Source: Candidatus Gastranaerophilales bacterium (GTDB lineage Bacteria; Cyanobacteriota; Vampirovibrionia; Gastranaerophilales; Gastranaerophilaceae). Taken from it: a stretch of DNA of 64,000 nucleotides. The notes under the pieces were generated by a model. The model saw only the letters and a program-made list of their open reading frames with translations. It was not told the DNA's origin and searched no databases. The DNA lies in assembly GCA_944322885.1 (NCBI GenBank), contig CALUQH010000012.1, forward strand, positions 1 to 64,000. The letters run 5' to 3'. Every line of letters begins with the position of its first letter. The first letter of the stretch is position 1. Shown piece after piece: positions 1 through 46,196 of this stretch. Position numbers and translations under genes: made by a program.

Positions 1-935
1 CGTTACGCGGCAAGGTACGGGCTATTGGTACACATTTACAATCAGGTAAGTCACGCCATTCCTGAGTATCACTACATGTATCACTAAAGCCGGGGATGGC
101 CTCCCATTGTCCGTTTACACACTGCTGGCCGCAGACGGGCGGGGTATCACCGGGATTACATACAGAAACAGGTTCATCCCCTTCTTCGCCGCCGCCCGGA
201 ACTACAGCATTACCAAATTTTTCTTCAACACAAGAGCATTCACCAGTAACATTATTTTTTAGTTTAATTAAACCTTCTTGGCATTGCAAGGTTAGACATT
301 GATCTAATTGAACACCTCCGTTTTGTCCTTTTGGAATACAAGAACATGAGGCAAAATTAAAGGTACCACCTTGTCCCTCACAAGAAGTCATTTTAGCATA
401 CCAAAAAGGATCATTATAAGGATCACAAACAGAAGCTGTACTGTCTTTTTTGCAAGTACAAGAAGCAATATCGGCGTACTGTCCCTTAGGGCACTGTAAA
501 CCAGGGCAATATACGCCTCCTGTACCAGTTACTCCACCACTATTATTTGTAGGCGCATCTATTAAACCATTTTCATACGCCCAAGCGGACTCATCCCATA
601 AACTGTCAAGCAAGGCAAAATAACTGCTATGACCTGAAGCCTGAGCCAAATGCTCAACCAAATTCAGTGCCTTATAGTTCTCATTCTGAGGATTGAAATC
701 CGTCAACAATGCCCGTGAAACATCTTTTAAGGACTCATAAGCCGAATAATAACTGTATGAAATCGTTGAATCAAGTTTCTTCTTTGTTACACCTATAGTT
801 ACTGCTACTACAACTGAAATTATCAGCATAACAATTACTATTTCGGCCAGGGTGTATGCAGGCTGAAACCCTTTAGAGGAGCTTAGAGTGCCCCCCCCCG
901 ACGGGATTAAATTCCGCAAAAATTTTCATACTCAT
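1..935 (-). CDS. Prepilin-like Cys-rich surface protein, 3' end outside window, off-frame at a G9 tract
   Basis: Minus-strand gene running off the left edge. After the homopolymer at 891-899 the frame reads KGFQPAYTLAEIVIVML, a type IV prepilin-like cleavage site and hydrophobic helix. An extracellular part follows with many Cys residues in short CxC or CxxxxC spacings, suggesting disulfide-bonded repeats. The ATG at 935 has AGGAG six bases upstream and starts MSMKIFAEFNPVGGG. The ATG at 939 is too close to the SD and stops after ten codons. With nine G residues the 935 frame stops shortly after the tract. Eight or eleven G would join it to the prepilin frame, so as written the gene is OFF. 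The length of the full protein cannot be judged. Function as a surface-exposed pseudopilin is inferred from the N-terminus only. Confidence 0.75.
891..899. repeat. Homopolymer tract C9 (G9 in the sense strand of the gene)
   Basis: Nine C residues on the top strand, preceded by G and followed by GACG. The tract lies inside the 5' coding region of the minus-strand prepilin-like gene starting at 935. The start at 935 and the prepilin ATG codon at 829 are 106 bases apart, so the frame is off by one. Tract lengths of 8 or 11 would be in frame. Confidence 0.9.
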
Positions 936-12540: not shown

Positions 12541-13412
12541 TCAGTATTTAACCCTGAACGGATAGTCTTTCGGTATTTTCCAGCCGCTAACCTGAATCCA
12601 TTTTGTACAGTATCCTGCCCAGACAGATGTCGAATTGCAGCCATAAGTAGAATCGTTTTTTAATGTATCAATCTTTCCATCCCAGCTTGATGTGCCATAA
12701 GTACTGAATTCCCAGGCATAATATCCGTTACTATCAGTTTTTTTTATTGGATTATAATAAAATGCAAAAGAACATTTTCCACAACCATTAAGAATTCCAG
12801 AAGAATCTCCAAAGCACTTTTCTGGATTCCCAGGGAAAAAGAACCAGTCTCTGCTATTTGAAATACCTAGCAAAACAGAACTTCCATCGGCAAAAGTCAT
12901 GTAAAAATATCTGCTTAATTTTCCGTAGTCTATAATATTCATATAAGGTATTAAATATTTTTCGCACCACGCCTTTTGGGACTCATAATCAGAATTATCT
13001 TCGAACCACATGTCACGGGCTCCGTAATCAACTTCAGCACGGGCTATAGCCTGGTTCATACTCGAATAAAATTTTTGAATACGGGCTACAACCACCTGTT
13101 TATTATGATTATCAATTAATGCAGGGATTGTTAGTGCGGCAACAATACCGATTATGCCAAGAGTTATCAATACTTCCGCCAATGTGAAGGCAGATTTTCC
13201 CTCCCTGATTAGGGAGGGATCAAGGGTGGGTAACAATCTTCTATTGTTTGATTGATTGAAACCCATCCTAACCTTCCCTTTATAGGGAAGGAAATAGAAA
13301 TTAGTTTTTCGTGAGCTTTGCTCTTTGATAACGGACTGACATCCAGTCTTACAGCCATCTGTTAGCTCTGAATGCCCCCCCCCCGAAATTCTGAATTTAA
13401 ATATCTTTTCAT
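12541..13412 (-). CDS. Prepilin-like surface protein, off-frame at a G10 tract
   Basis: A start at 13412 (MKRYLNSEFR) has GAGGAG seven bases upstream and a promoter at 13445-13472. After ten G (13375-13384) this frame stops. With eleven or eight G it runs without stops through a long polar leader into GKSAFTLAEVLITLGIIGIV, the prepilin cleavage site and helix, then a globular domain ending in WKIPKDYPF. The ON product would be about 290 residues. An internal ATG at 13266 has GGAAGG five bases upstream, supplied by a palindromic repeat, so a shorter product (241 residues) might be made regardless of phase. Two REP-like palindromes are translated as part of the leader. It is convergent with ruvB. 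Role as pseudopilin or minor pilin inferred. Confidence 0.8.
13198..13291. repeat. Pair of REP-like palindromes in inverted arrangement
   Basis: Palindrome 1 is TCCCTCCCT-GATT-AGGGAGGGA (198-219 of this kilobase) followed by GGGTGGGT. Palindrome 2 is CCTTCCCT-TTAT-AGGGAAGG (272-291) preceded by ACCCATCC. The two units are similar and point in opposite directions, like a bacterial interspersed mosaic element. Here they lie inside the open leader of the prepilin-like gene between the G tract and the prepilin motif. Confidence 0.7.
13375..13384. repeat. Homopolymer tract C10 (G10 sense)
   Basis: Ten C on the top strand within TG-C10-GAAATT, eight codons after the SD-supported ATG at 13412. The distance from that ATG to the in-frame prepilin codon at 13266 is 146 bases, one short of a multiple of three. 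Lengths of 11 or 8 restore the frame. Confidence 0.92.
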
Positions 13413-19118: not shown

Positions 19119-19147
19119 TTGACAAAACTTTGAAAATAAGAAATAAT
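19119..19147 (+). promoter_or_regulatory. Promoter of cassette 1 prepilin-like gene
   Basis: TTGACA (19119-19124), 17 bp, AATAAT (19142-19147). The same TTGACA-N17-AATAAT arrangement precedes the prepilin-like genes at 23539 and 45406. Confidence 0.7.
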
Positions 19148-19183
19148 AAAAACAGAGTTTTAAAATTTTAGGAGGCAAAAATT

Positions 19184-19977
19184 ATGGATAGAGAAGAGCT
19201 GAGAATCGCCCCCCCCCCGAAAAAGTAGCGTTTTGTGAAAGTTCTAAGGCATTTACTCTCGCAGAAGTTCTTATTACCTTAGGGATTATCGGTGTTGTTG
19301 CGGCTATGACCATACCAACAGTAATCTCAAATTACAAATATATGGTATTACAAAATCAGCTTAAAACAGCTTATTCAGACTTAAATCAGGCCGCGAAACT
19401 TTTTCAGGTATACCATGACATGTCTGTAAGTGAATATGCTTCAAGCAACGGTTCAACAGACACACAAAAAGAATTCTCTAAGGTATTTAACGGAGTTATA
19501 AAAAAATCAGATACCGTTTACGGCTCTGTCGATGATGACGGAAATATCCTATCAGGTCAAGCCTATGAATGGCGCGACATTAAAGGTGAAAAAGGATACG
19601 GGCCAAGTTGCGATTTTAGCGGGTATTTTTGGGATATACAAGGAAGAGTTATAGGATTTGACAACACACCGCAAGCCGGAGAAAACGGCCCCAAAGTGTG
19701 TATAGATATTAACGGGGAAAAAGCTCCAAACAGATACGGCGTTGATTACTTTGTTTTTATGTTTACTACTGACGGTTATGTTATTCCCTGGGGACAAAAA
19801 CATACAGACAATCCTTCATGTATGGATTATTATAATAACTGCACAGTTTCAAAAAATAATTGTAAATATGTATCAGGTCAAGTAGACCAGGTCACATGTG
19901 CAAATTATGCTCTCATAAACCAGCACCCGACGGATTCCACAAAAGATTACTGGCATGATTTTGTCAGAGGGAGATAA
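19184..19977 (+). CDS. Prepilin-like surface protein, off-frame at a C10 tract (cassette 1)
   Basis: The ATG at 19184 follows a strong SD (AGGAGG, about eight bases) and starts MDREELRIAPPP. With ten C (19209-19218) the frame ends in TAG at 19226. With eleven or eight C it continues as EKVAFCESSKAFTLAEVLIT, the prepilin cleavage site and helix, to a 264-residue product. The visible ATG at 19306 lies inside the hydrophobic helix, lacks an SD and would not give an exported pilin. The globular part has paired Cys and the family signature VCIDINGEKAPNRYGVD. The C-terminus, CANYALINQHPTDSTKDYWH, differs from the paralogs at 23539 and 45406. It is transcribed alone; the convergent gene begins 1 bp after its stop. 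Confidence 0.82.
19209..19218. repeat. Homopolymer tract C10 (sense)
   Basis: Ten C within ATCG-C10-GAAAAA, nine codons after the ATG at 19184. The distance from this ATG to the in-frame prepilin codon at 19306 is 122 bases. One extra C, or two fewer, restores a single frame. Confidence 0.93.
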
Positions 19978-23538: not shown

Positions 23539-24380
23539 ATGGATAGAGAAGAGCTGAGAATCGCCCCCCCCCCGAAAAAACAGATATAGTAAGGCATTCG
23601 AATAAGTATATTTACTTTTTTAAAAAAGTATGCAAAAATAGTGACAAGATGCATCACTTTAAAAGATTTGGTTTTACTCTTGCGGAAGTTCTTATTACCT
23701 TAGGAATTATCGGTGTTGTAGCGGCTATGACTATGCCGTCATTAATTGCGAACTACCAGAAAAAAAGAGCCGTTACTCAGCTAAAAGCTACATACTCAAT
23801 CCTGTCACAAGCGTTTGAAAGAGCTAAAGCCGATTATGGGGATATGTCATACTGGGGATTAGACAGTATATATGGACAAACTTCAGGTGAAGAAGGTATT
23901 GTTAAAAATGTAATTGAGACATATTTCCTGCCATATATTAAACCATTAAAAAACTATGGAGTGACAACTTTTACAAATTTAGGTTATTGGCCAATTTACA
24001 ACCTTGATAAAAGTATAGATACTATAGTTCTTGGTCAAGATAGATATTTTATAACCTTAACCAACGGGACAATTGTAGGTTTTTCACTTGATGGGCACTG
24101 TGATGAAGAAGGTACTGATGAAAACGGTAATTGGGTATGCAATTCCCAGTGGTATTTTACTATAGTTTACATAATAGTTGATATAAACGGAAAACAAGGC
24201 CCAAATACATTCGGAAAAGATATATTTGTAATGAAATTATCAAAAAACAAATTTGGTTTTTACAGCTATGATGTTAATAAAAAACAACTTGAAAAATATT
24301 GTACTAAAGGCTCCAGTGAAAACAGGCAATGCGGAGCTCTTATACAAGCAGACGGCTGGGAAATTAAATACGACTGGTAG
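23539..24380 (+). CDS. Prepilin-like surface protein, off-frame at a C10 tract (cassette 2)
   Basis: The ATG at 23539 follows AGGAGG and starts MDREELRIAPPP, as in cassettes 1 and 3. At C10 the frame ends in TAG at 23587. At C11 or C8 it stays open through a 28-residue polar linker into KRFGFTLAEVLITLGIIGVV, for about 280 residues. The internal ATG at 23649 (MHHFKRF) has no SD but would still give a normal short prepilin leader, so weak expression in any phase is conceivable. The globular domain has the DINGKQGPNTFGKDIFVMKL block and ends CGALIQADGWEIKYDW. First about 75 and last about 60 residues closely match the gene at 45406; the middle differs. The stop overlaps the convergent gene at 24364 by 17 bp. 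Confidence 0.83.
23564..23573. repeat. Homopolymer tract C10 (sense)
   Basis: Ten C within ATCG-C10-GAAAAA, identical in context to the tract at 19209. ATG 23539 and prepilin ATG 23649 are 110 bases apart, so +1 C or -2 C fuses the frames. Confidence 0.93.
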
Positions 24381-25535: not shown

Positions 25536-26648
25536 TTATTTTCCCGAAGGACCGAATGTTCCGTGGAATACACCCCTAAACATCTGCTGCAATTCATTTT
25601 TATTATCGGAATAAGACATCGCAACATCTTCAGTTATTAATTCCTGTTCATAAAGTCTGTATAACGAAGCATTCATTGTAATCATGTTGTTGAAGGAACC
25701 TTTTTTAACAAGTTCATATATTTCTTCCAGCTTATCCTTTTCAATAAAATCTTTAACAGTCGGAGTCACAACAAGCACCTCACATGCTGGTCTGCGGCCC
25801 GCTGCATTTGATATCGGAATAAGTTTTTGAGATACGGTTCCCCTTAAGATAGAAGCCAGCTGTCCTCTAACGAAATCACGATCTGACGGTTCAAACATGT
25901 TAACGATTCTGTTTACGGTTTGAATTGCATCATTTGTGTGAATTGTTGCAAATACAAGGTGACCGGTTTCTGCCGCTTTCAAAGCAGCTGTAACAGTTTC
26001 TTTATCTCTGATTTCACCAATAAATATAACATCAGGATCCTGTCTTAATGCATATTTTATACCATCTGGGAAAGACGGAGTATCTATCAAAACCTGTCTC
26101 TGAGATACAAGTGATTTTTTATTTGTAAAAATAAATTCTACAGGATCCTCAATAGTAATAATATGTTTCGGATAATTAATATTTATATAATCTATCAAAG
26201 AAGCAATAGTAGTAGATTTACCTGAACCGGTAGGTCCGGTAATTAAAACAAGACCGTTATTCAGGGTTGCAAACTGCTCTATTGATTCCGGAAGCATTAA
26301 ATCAGCAATACGTTTTATATTATAAGGAATTGTTCTTATAACAAGAGCACTTTTGCCGAGCTGACGGCTTAGATTAACCCTGAAACGCGAAACACCTCTG
26401 ATTTCATAAGCAAAATCCAAATCAAAAACTGCATTAACTTTTCCTTTAAAATGAGTAGGAAGAAGTATATCATAAGCAATCGAAATATCATTTTCAGTCA
26501 ATGCAGGCATGTCAACTTTAGTAATTTTTCCGTCTATACGTATAGCAGGATGCTCATCAACCTGCAGATGAATATCTGATGCACCTATGGCTACAGCCTT
26601 TTTTAAAAATGCTATTATATTGAATTTACTGTTTGAATAATTTTCCAC
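25536..26648 (-). CDS. pilT: PilT-type twitching ATPase
   Basis: A 370-residue hexameric secretion ATPase that powers type IV pilus retraction from the cytoplasmic side of the inner membrane. Landmarks: ASDIHLQVDEHPAIRIDG at the N-terminus, Walker A GPTGSGKST at 138-146, the Asp box IIIEDP-like IITIEDPVEF, Walker B DPDVIFIGEIRD and the His box GHLVFATIHTNDA. The C-terminal AIRNLIRE motif of retraction ATPases is replaced by TVKDFIEK, so retraction activity is uncertain and a PilU-like role is possible. Start is GTG with AGAGG nine bases upstream. Its presence links the many prepilin-like genes of the window to a type IV pilus apparatus; no pilB, pilC or pilD is seen here. Confidence 0.88.
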   Translation of the reverse strand: MENYSNSKFNIIAFLKKAVAIGASDIHLQVDEHPAIRIDGKITKVDMPALTENDISIAYDILLPTHFKGKVNAVFDLDFAYEIRGVSRFRVNLSRQLGKSALVIRTIPYNIKRIADLMLPESIEQFATLNNGLVLITGPTGSGKSTTIASLIDYININYPKHIITIEDPVEFIFTNKKSLVSQRQVLIDTPSFPDGIKYALRQDPDVIFIGEIRDKETVTAALKAAETGHLVFATIHTNDAIQTVNRIVNMFEPSDRDFVRGQLASILRGTVSQKLIPISNAAGRRPACEVLVVTPTVKDFIEKDKLEEIYELVKKGSFNNMITMNASLYRLYEQELITEDVAMSYSDNKNELQQMFRGVFHGTFGPSGK

Positions 26649-26992: not shown

Positions 26993-29275
26993 ATGAATAG
27001 TAATATAAATTTTGTTAGTAAAAACGATTGCAGCGGATGTTCGGCCTGCTCTAACATTTGTCCGCAGCATGCCATAACTATGCTGCCGGATTCCGAAGGT
27101 TTTAAATATCCCTGTATAGACGAAGGGAAATGCAGCGGATGCGGTCTGTGTTTGTCTGTATGTCAGAGAGTTGCCCCCCCCCCGAAACTCAAGCCACACG
27201 GGCTTATCGCGGTTGCAAAAGACAATATTATTCGTCAAAAATCTTCTTCCGGCGGAGTATTTTCAATATTTGCAAATCATATTTTAGAAAATGGAGGTTA
27301 TGTCTGTGCTGCCGCATTTGATGAAAATTGGTCAGTAAATCATATTATAATAAATGATAAAAAAGATTTAGATAAATTAAGGCGCACAAAATATGTTCAA
27401 AGTAACATAAATAATTGTTACTCCGTAATAAAAAAACTATTAAATGATGAAAAACTTGTTTTTTTCGTAGGTACTCCATGTCAGGTAGACGGGTTAAATA
27501 AATTTTTACAATATAAAAATTATGATAATCTGCTAACTATGGATTTATACTGTCATAGTGCTCCATCGCCATTTGTGTTTGAAAAGCTTATTGAAGAACA
27601 CGGCGGAAAAGAAAATATATCCTATGTAAATTTTAGAGATAAATCAAGGGGCGGCTGGAAAAAATACGACTTTATAATAGAAACAAAAGACGGAACAAAG
27701 CATTACAACAATGAGTATGTAAAAGCATTTGTTAACGGCTACTTTTCAAGACAATCCTGCTATAGCTGCAAATATGCAAAATTTCCCAGAGTCAGCGATA
27801 TTACCGGAGCTGATTTTTGGGGAGCGCCGGAAGAATATGACGATAACACAGGAACTTCAATTCTTCTAATAAACAGCAAAAAAGGAAAAAACTTTCTTGA
27901 AAAAGTTAAACATGAGTTTAAAGTTCTAAAAAATATGCCGTTAAAAAAATTCGGGCATAACGGGCTTAAAAAGACTGAAAAGCCGTACTATCGGGAAAAT
28001 TTCTGGAAAGATATTCAAAATATGCCGGTTTCCAAATGCTTAGAGAAATATACCGGAGGCAAAGCAGTCGCAATTAATAATTTATATTACAGTGGAAACT
28101 ACGGAGCAATGTTTGTAGGTTATTCCATGCAAAAAATAGTAGAAGATTTAGGATATTTGCCATATCATGTAAAATCTCGCTATACTCCAGACCCTGTCAG
28201 TAAAAAATTTATTAACAGATATATTAATACGACCTCACAGCCGGAGAGCAATCCTGAATATTTAAATAATACATTTGAAACATTTATTGCAGGTTCTGAT
28301 CAGGTGTGGAATTTAGGCATAATCAAACACAAAAATCTCAGCCACCTCTTCCCCAATATTAGTAATAATAAAAAGAAAATAGGTTATGCAGTCAGTTTCG
28401 GTCATTCCAATTTGTCAGAATGGGAAAATGATTATCATATAAATGCACTCAAATATTACACAACGCTGTTTGATTATGTTTCGGTAAGAGAATATGACGG
28501 AGTAGATATATGCAAAAATGAGTTAGGAATTAACAGTACAAAAGTACTTGATCCGACGCTTGTCCTTGATAAAAATGAATGGGATAAACTTGCCAAAAAT
28601 TCCGAATTTTATAATAAAACAGATAAATATATTGCAGTATATATTTTGGATGAAAATGATGAAAAAAATAAAATTTTGAATACACTGCAAGAATTTTACA
28701 ATTACAAAGTTATTAAAATAAATCTCAAAGAAAATCAACAAACTCCGGAAGATTTTATTGCGTTAATTAAAAATGCACAGTATGTTGTTACGGATTCATT
28801 CCACGGAGTGTGTTTTTCTATCATTTTCAACAAGCAGTTTCTGGCAGTATACAATGAAAGAAGAGGTTTGAGCCGATTTAAAACTCTTGAAAAACAATTT
28901 GGAATCGGAAATCAGTTTATTAAAGAATTCATTGGGAAAGAAAAAATTATTGAAATAATTAACAGCAAAATAGATTATGAAAATATAGAAAAAATAAAAC
29001 AAAAAGAAAGCGAAGCCTCTATAAGATGGCTTAAAAACAGTATTGAAAAAGAAAAAACAAAACATCCGGCACCGCAGGATTATATGTTTGAATATCAAAA
29101 AGAAGAATTTAAACATGTAATAACATTTCTTTTAAATAAAAATACTATTAACAGAAAATTCCAAATATATAAAATACTCAGGTTCATAACCTTCGGACAT
29201 TTTAAAAATAAATATAAAAAATATAAAAAACTGCGTAAAGAATTAAAAGAAATACAAAAAACTCATGCATTATAA
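26993..29275 (+). CDS. Ferredoxin-FrhB-polysaccharide pyruvyl transferase fusion with an in-frame C10 tract
   Basis: A 760-residue two-part protein. Residues 1-60 bind two [4Fe-4S] clusters (C13, C16, C19, C23 and C47, C50, C53, C57). A coenzyme F420 hydrogenase/dehydrogenase beta-like domain follows to about residue 350 (SSSGGVFSIF, VFFVGTPCQVDGL). The C-terminal half, from VAINNLYYSGNYGAM, is a polysaccharide pyruvyl transferase domain (IAGSDQVWNLG, TDSFHGVCFSIIF). Such proteins sit in surface glycan clusters of gut bacteria, where they are thought to modify exopolysaccharide. Ten C (27174-27183) encode A61-P64 directly after the second cluster and are in frame, so this gene is ON. A change of one base would truncate it after the ferredoxin domain. 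SD AGGTG. The C-terminus is Lys-rich. Confidence 0.88.
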   Translation: MNSNINFVSKNDCSGCSACSNICPQHAITMLPDSEGFKYPCIDEGKCSGCGLCLSVCQRVAPPPKLKPHGLIAVAKDNIIRQKSSSGGVFSIFANHILENGGYVCAAAFDENWSVNHIIINDKKDLDKLRRTKYVQSNINNCYSVIKKLLNDEKLVFFVGTPCQVDGLNKFLQYKNYDNLLTMDLYCHSAPSPFVFEKLIEEHGGKENISYVNFRDKSRGGWKKYDFIIETKDGTKHYNNEYVKAFVNGYFSRQSCYSCKYAKFPRVSDITGADFWGAPEEYDDNTGTSILLINSKKGKNFLEKVKHEFKVLKNMPLKKFGHNGLKKTEKPYYRENFWKDIQNMPVSKCLEKYTGGKAVAINNLYYSGNYGAMFVGYSMQKIVEDLGYLPYHVKSRYTPDPVSKKFINRYINTTSQPESNPEYLNNTFETFIAGSDQVWNLGIIKHKNLSHLFPNISNNKKKIGYAVSFGHSNLSEWENDYHINALKYYTTLFDYVSVREYDGVDICKNELGINSTKVLDPTLVLDKNEWDKLAKNSEFYNKTDKYIAVYILDENDEKNKILNTLQEFYNYKVIKINLKENQQTPEDFIALIKNAQYVVTDSFHGVCFSIIFNKQFLAVYNERRGLSRFKTLEKQFGIGNQFIKEFIGKEKIIEIINSKIDYENIEKIKQKESEASIRWLKNSIEKEKTKHPAPQDYMFEYQKEEFKHVITFLLNKNTINRKFQIYKILRFITFGHFKNKYKKYKKLRKELKEIQKTHAL
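27174..27183. repeat. Homopolymer tract C10 inside a glycan-modification gene
   Basis: Ten C within TTG-C10-GAAAC, read as GCC CCC CCC CCG. The core G-C10-GAAA equals that of the prepilin cassettes, but here the ten-C length keeps the frame open. Confidence 0.93.
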
Positions 29276-33038: not shown

Positions 33039-33164
33039 TTATATAATGTAGAACGTCACTACAATAACAGTTTTTTTATCTTTTTCAACCAACGAAATTG
33101 TTGAAACTAGCCGCAAATGCCCCCCCCCCTCTTCCAGAAACTCTGTTCTTGAAAAATTTTTCAT
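33039..33164 (-). CDS. Leader ORF containing the G10 tract
   Basis: The ATG at 33164 has AAGGAG about seven bases upstream. It encodes MKNFSRTEFLEEGGGHLRLV, continues 41 residues to TAA at 33039 and ends in tandem stops (TAATAA) merged with the SD of the prepilin-like gene. With ten G the ribosome would terminate right at that SD. With eleven or nine it would stop well upstream (TGA or TAG). It looks like a decayed version of the phase-switch cassette, or a coupling leader peptide. Confidence 0.5.
   Translation of the reverse strand: MKNFSRTEFLEEGGGHLRLVSTISLVEKDKKTVIVVTFYII
33120..33129. repeat. Homopolymer tract C10 (G10 sense) in a leader ORF
   Basis: Ten C on the top strand within ATG-C10-TCTTCC, in the leader ORF 33039-33164. 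Only the ten-base phase allows the leader to be translated up to the prepilin-like gene. Confidence 0.93.
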
Positions 33165-45405: not shown

Positions 45406-46196
45406 ATGGATAGAGAAGAGCTGAGAATTGCCCCCCCCCCGAAAAATTAGCATTTGGCGGTGGTTTTAAGGCATTTACTCTCGCAGAAGTCCTTATTACC
45501 CTGGGAATTATTGGTGTTGTAGCGGCTATGACTATGCCGTCATTAGTTGAGAACTACCGAAAAAAAAGAACCGTTACTCAACTAAAAGCTACATATTCAA
45601 TCCTGTCACAAGCGTTTGAAAGAGCTAAAGCCGATTACGGGGATATGTCATACTGGGGATTAAACAGTATATATGGACAGACTTCAGGAGCAGAGAGTAT
45701 AATTAAAAATGTTGTTGAAACATACTACTTACCATATATTAACCCTGTAAAAAGTTACGGAATAACAAAATTAAAAAATATAGGTTATGAAAACGATATA
45801 TCCCTGCTTGACGGAACCAGTGCTTCTAAATCTGTTAATATTGACGCATTATCTTATATTATTATTTTACCTAATGGTGCAATAACAAGCTTTAAACTTG
45901 ATGATCACTGTGATGAAGTAGAAACAGATAGCGAAGGTAATAGAGTTTGTATTTCGGGCAGATATTATACTGTTGTATATATAATTGTAGATATAAACGG
46001 TTTAAAAAAGCCCAATACTGTAGGAAAAGATATATTTGTAATGAAATTATCAAATAACAAATTTGGTTTTTACAGCTACAGCGGTAATTTTAACAAACAA
46101 AAACTTGAAGAATATTGTACTAAAGGCTCCACAGAAAACAGGCAATGCGGAGCGCTTATACAAGCAGACGGCTGGGAAATTAAGTATGACTGGTAA
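45406..46196 (+). CDS. Prepilin-like surface protein, off-frame at a C10 tract (cassette 3)
   Basis: ATG at 45406, strong SD AAGGAGG, start MDREELRIAPPP. At C10 the frame ends in TAG at 45448. At C11 or C8 it fuses to EKLAFGGGFKAFTLAEVLIT and gives about 263 residues. The internal ATG at 45528 lies within the hydrophobic helix, has no SD and would yield a defective protein. The rest matches the gene at 23539 in the first about 75 mature residues (KRTVTQLKATYSILSQAFER, KADYGDMSYWGL) and the last about 60 (KDIFVMKLSNNKFGFYSY, CGALIQADGWEIKYDW), but the segment of roughly 50-60 residues in the middle is different. The cassette is directly fused to the end of the GH13-like gene. Confidence 0.83.
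45431..45440. repeat. Homopolymer tract C10 (sense)
   Basis: Ten C within ATTG-C10-GAAAAA, nine codons after the ATG at 45406. ATG 45406 and in-frame ATG 45528 are 122 bases apart; +1 or -2 C restores the frame. Confidence 0.93.

Follow-up and report, generated by a model that had tools for sequence, protein, structure and literature searches.

To our knowledge, homopolymer phase variation has been described chiefly in a handful of proteobacterial pathogens. In Neisseria, pilC1 and pilC2, the two copies of a pilus accessory protein gene, undergo poly-G/C phase variation through tracts of 9 to 20 G, and repeat tracts are present in only 23 of 607 pilS alleles (PMC5953494). C. jejuni carries 27 to 29 C/G tracts of 8 to 12 bases, variable in length and located in genes of mixed types (PMC5135748). 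At GnT hotspots, the mutability of leading-strand G tracts depends on the strand and on neighbouring bases (PMC12344412). The collection of literature searched contained no paper that links Gastranaerophilales or Melainabacteria to phase variation.

Here, a C10 tract at the head of a type IV pilin-like gene is described from a Candidatus Gastranaerophilales bacterium; the window is the whole stretch of DNA analysed, 64,000 nucleotides of contig CALUQH010000012.1. As in Neisseria pilC, expression of a type IV pilus gene would be switched by a C/G tract located inside its coding frame; unlike in pilC, the tract belongs to about 60 pilin-like subunit genes, has a modal length of exactly 10 and one ON register, is oriented along the chromosome and has conserved flanks. 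Like C. jejuni, this bacterium has a small, AT-rich genome of gut origin with dozens of C/G tracts in genes related to the surface, whereas no shared flank motif is mentioned in the portion of the C. jejuni account available (PMC5135748). Surface diversity drawn from a large family of pilin genes recalls Neisseria pilE/pilS, in which gene conversion feeds one expression locus; here nearly every tract pilin comes with a Shine-Dalgarno start and a tract of its own (53 of the 59 in this genome have a Shine-Dalgarno ATG ahead of the tract), and the silent donors lacking expression signals and the single expression locus of pilE/pilS-type antigenic variation are not seen. The promoter was checked at 19119-19147 only and not at the sister loci. 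G-tract mutability tied to leading-strand orientation and flanking bases is also seen at GnT hotspots, which are, however, substitutions at short G tracts followed by T and not a conserved gene switch (PMC12344412). The principle is known; the difference here is that the tract sits in the genes of the pilin-like subunits, dozens of times over, and comes with a strand rule and a directional flank.

Anatomy of the locus

The promoter, Shine-Dalgarno sequence, start codon, C10 tract and stop codon that a preliminary description had assigned to this locus were each confirmed to the base by direct reading (Table 1). The next frame after the tract, EKVAFCESSKAFTLAEVLITLGIIGVVAAMTIP..., runs to a stop at 19977 and is an intact ORF in one tract phase. 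It had been proposed that one more C leads into this frame, and the pilin-like frame is indeed entered at 11 C, or at 8. A frame scan between the tract and the helix found no ATG, GTG or TTG in the pilin frame; its first ATG, at 19306, lies within the hydrophobic helix, as had been claimed, and only ATT and ATC are present upstream. The tract satisfies one criterion of a slipped-strand phase-variable gene, a homopolymer of at least 8 inside an ORF, changes in which shift the frame. A length-dependent ON/OFF reading of the tract is supported by the predicted frames, with the effect on expression inferred. The strict switch suggested earlier stands as frame logic at the 19209 locus and fits the comparative data, translation being inferred, but cannot be generalised to all sister loci, since at 18 of 59 pilin loci in this genome an ATG lies in frame after the tract and ahead of the helix (7 of the 18 with a Shine-Dalgarno-like sequence).

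The window holds seven tracts. Chance predicts about 0.03 C or G runs of at least 9 where 7 were observed, and a chance run was rejected as the origin of the tract on these numbers; C runs in the window have lengths of 1 to 5, followed by a gap up to 9-10.

Table 1. Coordinates of the C10 locus, the sister tracts and the pilus ATPase gene within the window
Feature	Positions	Strand	Evidence or remark
Promoter, TTGACA (19119-19124), 17-nt spacer, AATAAT (19142-19147)	19119-19147	+	Consensus scan, 11/12 positions
Shine-Dalgarno AGGAGG	19170-19175	+	Direct reading
Leader ORF in C10 (OFF) phase, product MDREELRIAPPPKK	19184-19228	+	Start ATG 19184-19186, stop TAG 19226-19228
5′ flank AGCTGAGAATCG of directional element (consensus AGCYTAGARTG)	19197-19208	+	
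C10 tract, G on either side	19209-19218	+	Pilin in frame at 8 or 11
Type IV pilin-like ORF (EKVAFCESSKA/FTLAEV...), 252 residues past tract	19219-19977	+	Closed from ATG 19184 at C10
G9 tract (coding sense) ahead of pilin (TLSSSKGFQPAYTLAEIVIVML)	891-899	-	+2 needed, ON at 11
G10 tract (coding sense), start ATG 13412, pilin body 13266-12541	13375-13384	-	+1 needed
C10 tract, ATG 23539, pilin to 24380	23564-23573	+	+1 needed; in-frame ATG 23649 could bypass tract
C10 tract inside 4Fe-4S/FrhB/PS_pyruv_trans fusion gene (26993-29275)	27174-27183	+	Open at C10
G10 tract (coding sense) ahead of pilin with own ATG	33120-33129	-	Pilin frame closed between tract and own ATG; putative switch looks like a decayed or uncoupled copy
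C10 tract, same MDREELRI leader as ORF at 19184	45431-45440	+	+1 needed
PilT/PilU-family type IVa pilus ATPase	25536-26648	-	TIGR01420, 422 bits

Identity of the encoded protein

The product of 19219-19977 scored 19.8 bits against TIGR02532, above the cut-off of 16.3, and 21.1 against Pfam N_methyl, slightly under the cut-off of 21.2; an N-terminal cleavage/methylation motif with F+1 and E+5 is present. An AlphaFold model (pLDDT 84.7) has an N-terminal helix at residues 14-66 followed by strands that make up a beta-rich head. In a structure search, gonococcal pilin 1ay2 ranked top, but with an E of 1.1, which has no significance. By these sequence matches, the product is a type IV pilin-like, prepilin-type protein. 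Pilus machinery is present in the window, as the PilT/PilU-family type IVa ATPase is encoded there.

Distribution of the tract in the genome and genus

In the 1.86-Mb genome, 70 C/G tracts of at least 8 were found (58 of length 10, five of 11, three of 9 and four of 8), at least 59 of them just inside the start of pilin-like ORFs; matches to the N-methylation motif numbered 92 (E up to 1). The DNA examined consisted of the stretches around tracts, 394 kb, not the whole genome, and in it runs of 6 were rare, runs of 7 absent and runs of 6-8 nearly absent. C10 tracts were present in 29 of 33 congeneric species, with up to 169 in one species; summed over the 33, there were 1621 C10 versus 150 C11, and in most of them no other length came close to C10 in frequency. 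Other genera of the order Gastranaerophilales had 0-6 tracts of at least 9. A single stereotyped tract appears to serve most pilins of this uncultured non-photosynthetic cyanobacterial gut lineage.

The number of tracts followed the number of pilins with a Spearman coefficient of 0.92 when three species (G022, G039 and G002) were left out and 0.65 with all 33, and these three are exceptions within the genus. Pilin-motif matches number 128 in G022 and 96 in G039, yet both have almost no tracts; the pilin loci examined there (L298-L312) have mostly short canonical leaders without a tract, e.g., MNKKG/FTLAEV, and the tract module therefore looks like an addition to the pilins. The tracts of G002 (L150-L169) are longer, 8-15, often T-prefixed and of mixed orientation, and differ from those of the rest of the genus. 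Tracts of G004 occur in pairs with a spacing of about 25 bases (L172, L177, L181, L183), some with runs of N between them.

Reading-frame register

Counts of register were made on pilin loci with a Shine-Dalgarno ATG. Those with C10 or G10 were one base short in 123 of 134 cases, and those of other lengths kept the ON register of 8/11/14 in 23 of 32 and were offset by +1 in 4 of 32. In three species the ON length was 2 mod 3 at 48/53, 38/41 and 23/27 loci (binomial p = 5e-18, 2e-15 and 4e-8, respectively). The start-to-tract distance and the downstream frame each take all three values while their sum is fixed, so the register is selected and not merely inherited with one copied leader. Some 20 of 166 pilins (about 12% of tract loci) are in frame in the assembly consensus. 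As predicted from these frames, OFF at 10 is the family-wide default and not a chance state of the 19209 locus, and each cell can probably switch on a different few of the approximately 60 pilin genes.

Among reciprocal-best pilin pairs between species, 4 of 13 differ in tract length, 3 of 13 by exactly one base, with one member ON and the other OFF. These orthologues are putative, being reciprocal best hits from different species without a synteny check. Evidence of length variation comes from between species only, with no read-level or same-species comparison, and length change within populations is inferred.

Orientation and flanking sequence

The coding strand is the poly-G strand in 35 of 59 tract pilins in this genome and 37 of 43 in a second (G043). 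Between adjacent pilins of two genomes, the C strand changed in 2 of 35 and 2 of 39 pairs versus 15 and 11 changes of gene direction, and in a genome of eight contigs (G007) 78 tracts lie in a few long single-orientation blocks. The C strand had negative GC skew in 52/70, 42/50 and 40/51 regions, and the G strand is therefore probably the leading strand. dnaA does not lie at an orientation switch, so that the link to replication is an inference resting on GC skew. The orientation statistics cover only the genomes examined and the places listed.

A directional flank, AGCYTAGARTG-C10-GA, is common to C-coding and G-coding genes when both are aligned in DNA orientation. With a matrix made from flanks of C-coding genes, those of G-coding genes scored +4.7, shuffled flanks -7.1 ± 0.9 and reverse-complemented flanks -5.5. 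Because the two gene classes read opposite strands, the flank is a DNA-level element and not a peptide. The tract belongs to this directional element, whose orientation follows the chromosome irrespective of the gene; the reason why orientation and flank are conserved is inferred.

Classic phase-variable genera are poor in mismatch repair. MutS was present in 13 of 13 congeners, and loss of mismatch repair was set aside as the cause.

Alternative explanations

The uniform deficit of one base could mean that C10 or G10 is a fixed slippery site, at which a one-base slip of RNA polymerase or the ribosome yields some full-length pilin from every C10 gene, the length being conserved on that account. 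Homopolymers of about 10 are slippery in principle, and this reading would account for C10 loci being exactly one base short and for the dominance of length 10 in most species of the genus. It is disfavoured by the loci of other lengths, only 4 of 32 of which are offset by one while most hold to 8/11/14, and this register, together with the one-base toggles between orthologues, favours length switching over programmed slippage; moreover, non-pilin C10 genes are in frame, and chromosome orientation and directional flanks are left unexplained. We regard such decoding as improbable. The same deficit would be produced if a true length of 11 were reported as 10 through base-calling error or PCR stutter, with most pilins really ON, and the draft, metagenome-type character of the assemblies (40 contigs here; the relatives are MAGs) is compatible with this. 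Systematic undercalling is nevertheless disfavoured, because a tract of exactly 10 keeps the frame open in glycosyltransferase, acyltransferase and pyruvyl-transferase genes, among them GT2 orthologues from two species; length 10 is very probably true for this reason. In addition, C11 is called in the same genomes, mostly in frame, and lengths of 8-15 are called in G002, leaving very little weight for an artefact.

Least credence of all is given to the tracts being a by-product of leading-strand GnT-type mutation, which would create and lengthen G tracts in pilins that are mostly decaying paralogues. GnT hotspots do extend leading-strand G tracts (PMC12344412), the orientation matches, and the copy at 33120 is apparently decayed or uncoupled. 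Against this, the pilin ORFs are open across about 230-300 codons with invariant D/N/G/P/F/C positions, the tracts lie about 25-35 nt past the ATG and are not scattered, runs of 6-8 are nearly absent, and the ON register is conserved.

Proposed mechanism

Slipped-strand phase variation, OFF by default and tuned by replication context, is the best explanation and is considered likely. The C10 tract, which follows the start codon and precedes the prepilin leader, would be the slipped-strand tract: at 10 C, translation would stop after MDREELRIAPPPKK, and at 11 or 8 the product would be a type IV pilin-like protein extended at its N-terminus. That the OFF phase abolishes the pilin is inferred. 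The 19209 tract would be one copy of a genus-wide AGCYTAGARTG-C10-GA element acting as a default-OFF switch on most of a large pilin family, with just a small subset of pilins in frame at any time. Replication-strand-dependent mutability is inferred to favour leading-strand G tracts in this flank context, holding the tract near 10 and setting the switching rate, and selection would set the ON length at the usual length plus one such that each pilin is OFF in most cells. The payoff may be surface diversity and bet hedging, which is likewise an inference.

Several observations count against slipped-strand switching of this kind. Length 10 is more uniform than the tracts of C. jejuni (8-12 among 27; PMC5135748), MutS is present in all 13 congeners, G022 and G039 are nearly free of tracts, those of G002 are longer and of mixed orientation, and dnaA does not lie at an orientation switch.

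A bolder extension, which we hold to be rather unlikely, is that the approximately 23-bp AGCYTAGARTG-C10-GA element is recognised at the DNA level by a polar, replication-linked activity (e.g., a site of lagging-strand priming or polymerase hand-off, or else a dedicated factor), which causes the tract to switch and keeps its length at 10. If true, this activity would provide the genus with a default-OFF module that is portable, matched to the strand and used on dozens of pilins.

The tract system points to extreme pilus heterogeneity from cell to cell in a group of gut commensals, and the effect of replication direction and flanking bases on the rates of contingency loci becomes testable.

Tracts outside the pilin family of the genus

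The C10 element also occurs within non-pilin genes, at 27174-27183 in the window and at L044, L188, L057, L137 and L048. The GT2 glycosyltransferase, acyltransferase and pyruvyl-transferase fusion genes and one further long gene bearing it, open at exactly C10, are possibly default-ON switches for surface sugars.

Planctomycetaceae MAGs (JAITIZ, JAITBS, JAISQK) have G/C tracts of 11-13 directly before prepilin-type ORFs (GFTLVELLVVIAIIGVLIALLLPAVQ), at L198, L216, L230, L236, L241, L251, L255, L260, L262, L263 and L268. The AGARTG flank of these matches was preselected by the search pattern, and the tracts are possibly a convergent pilin switch.
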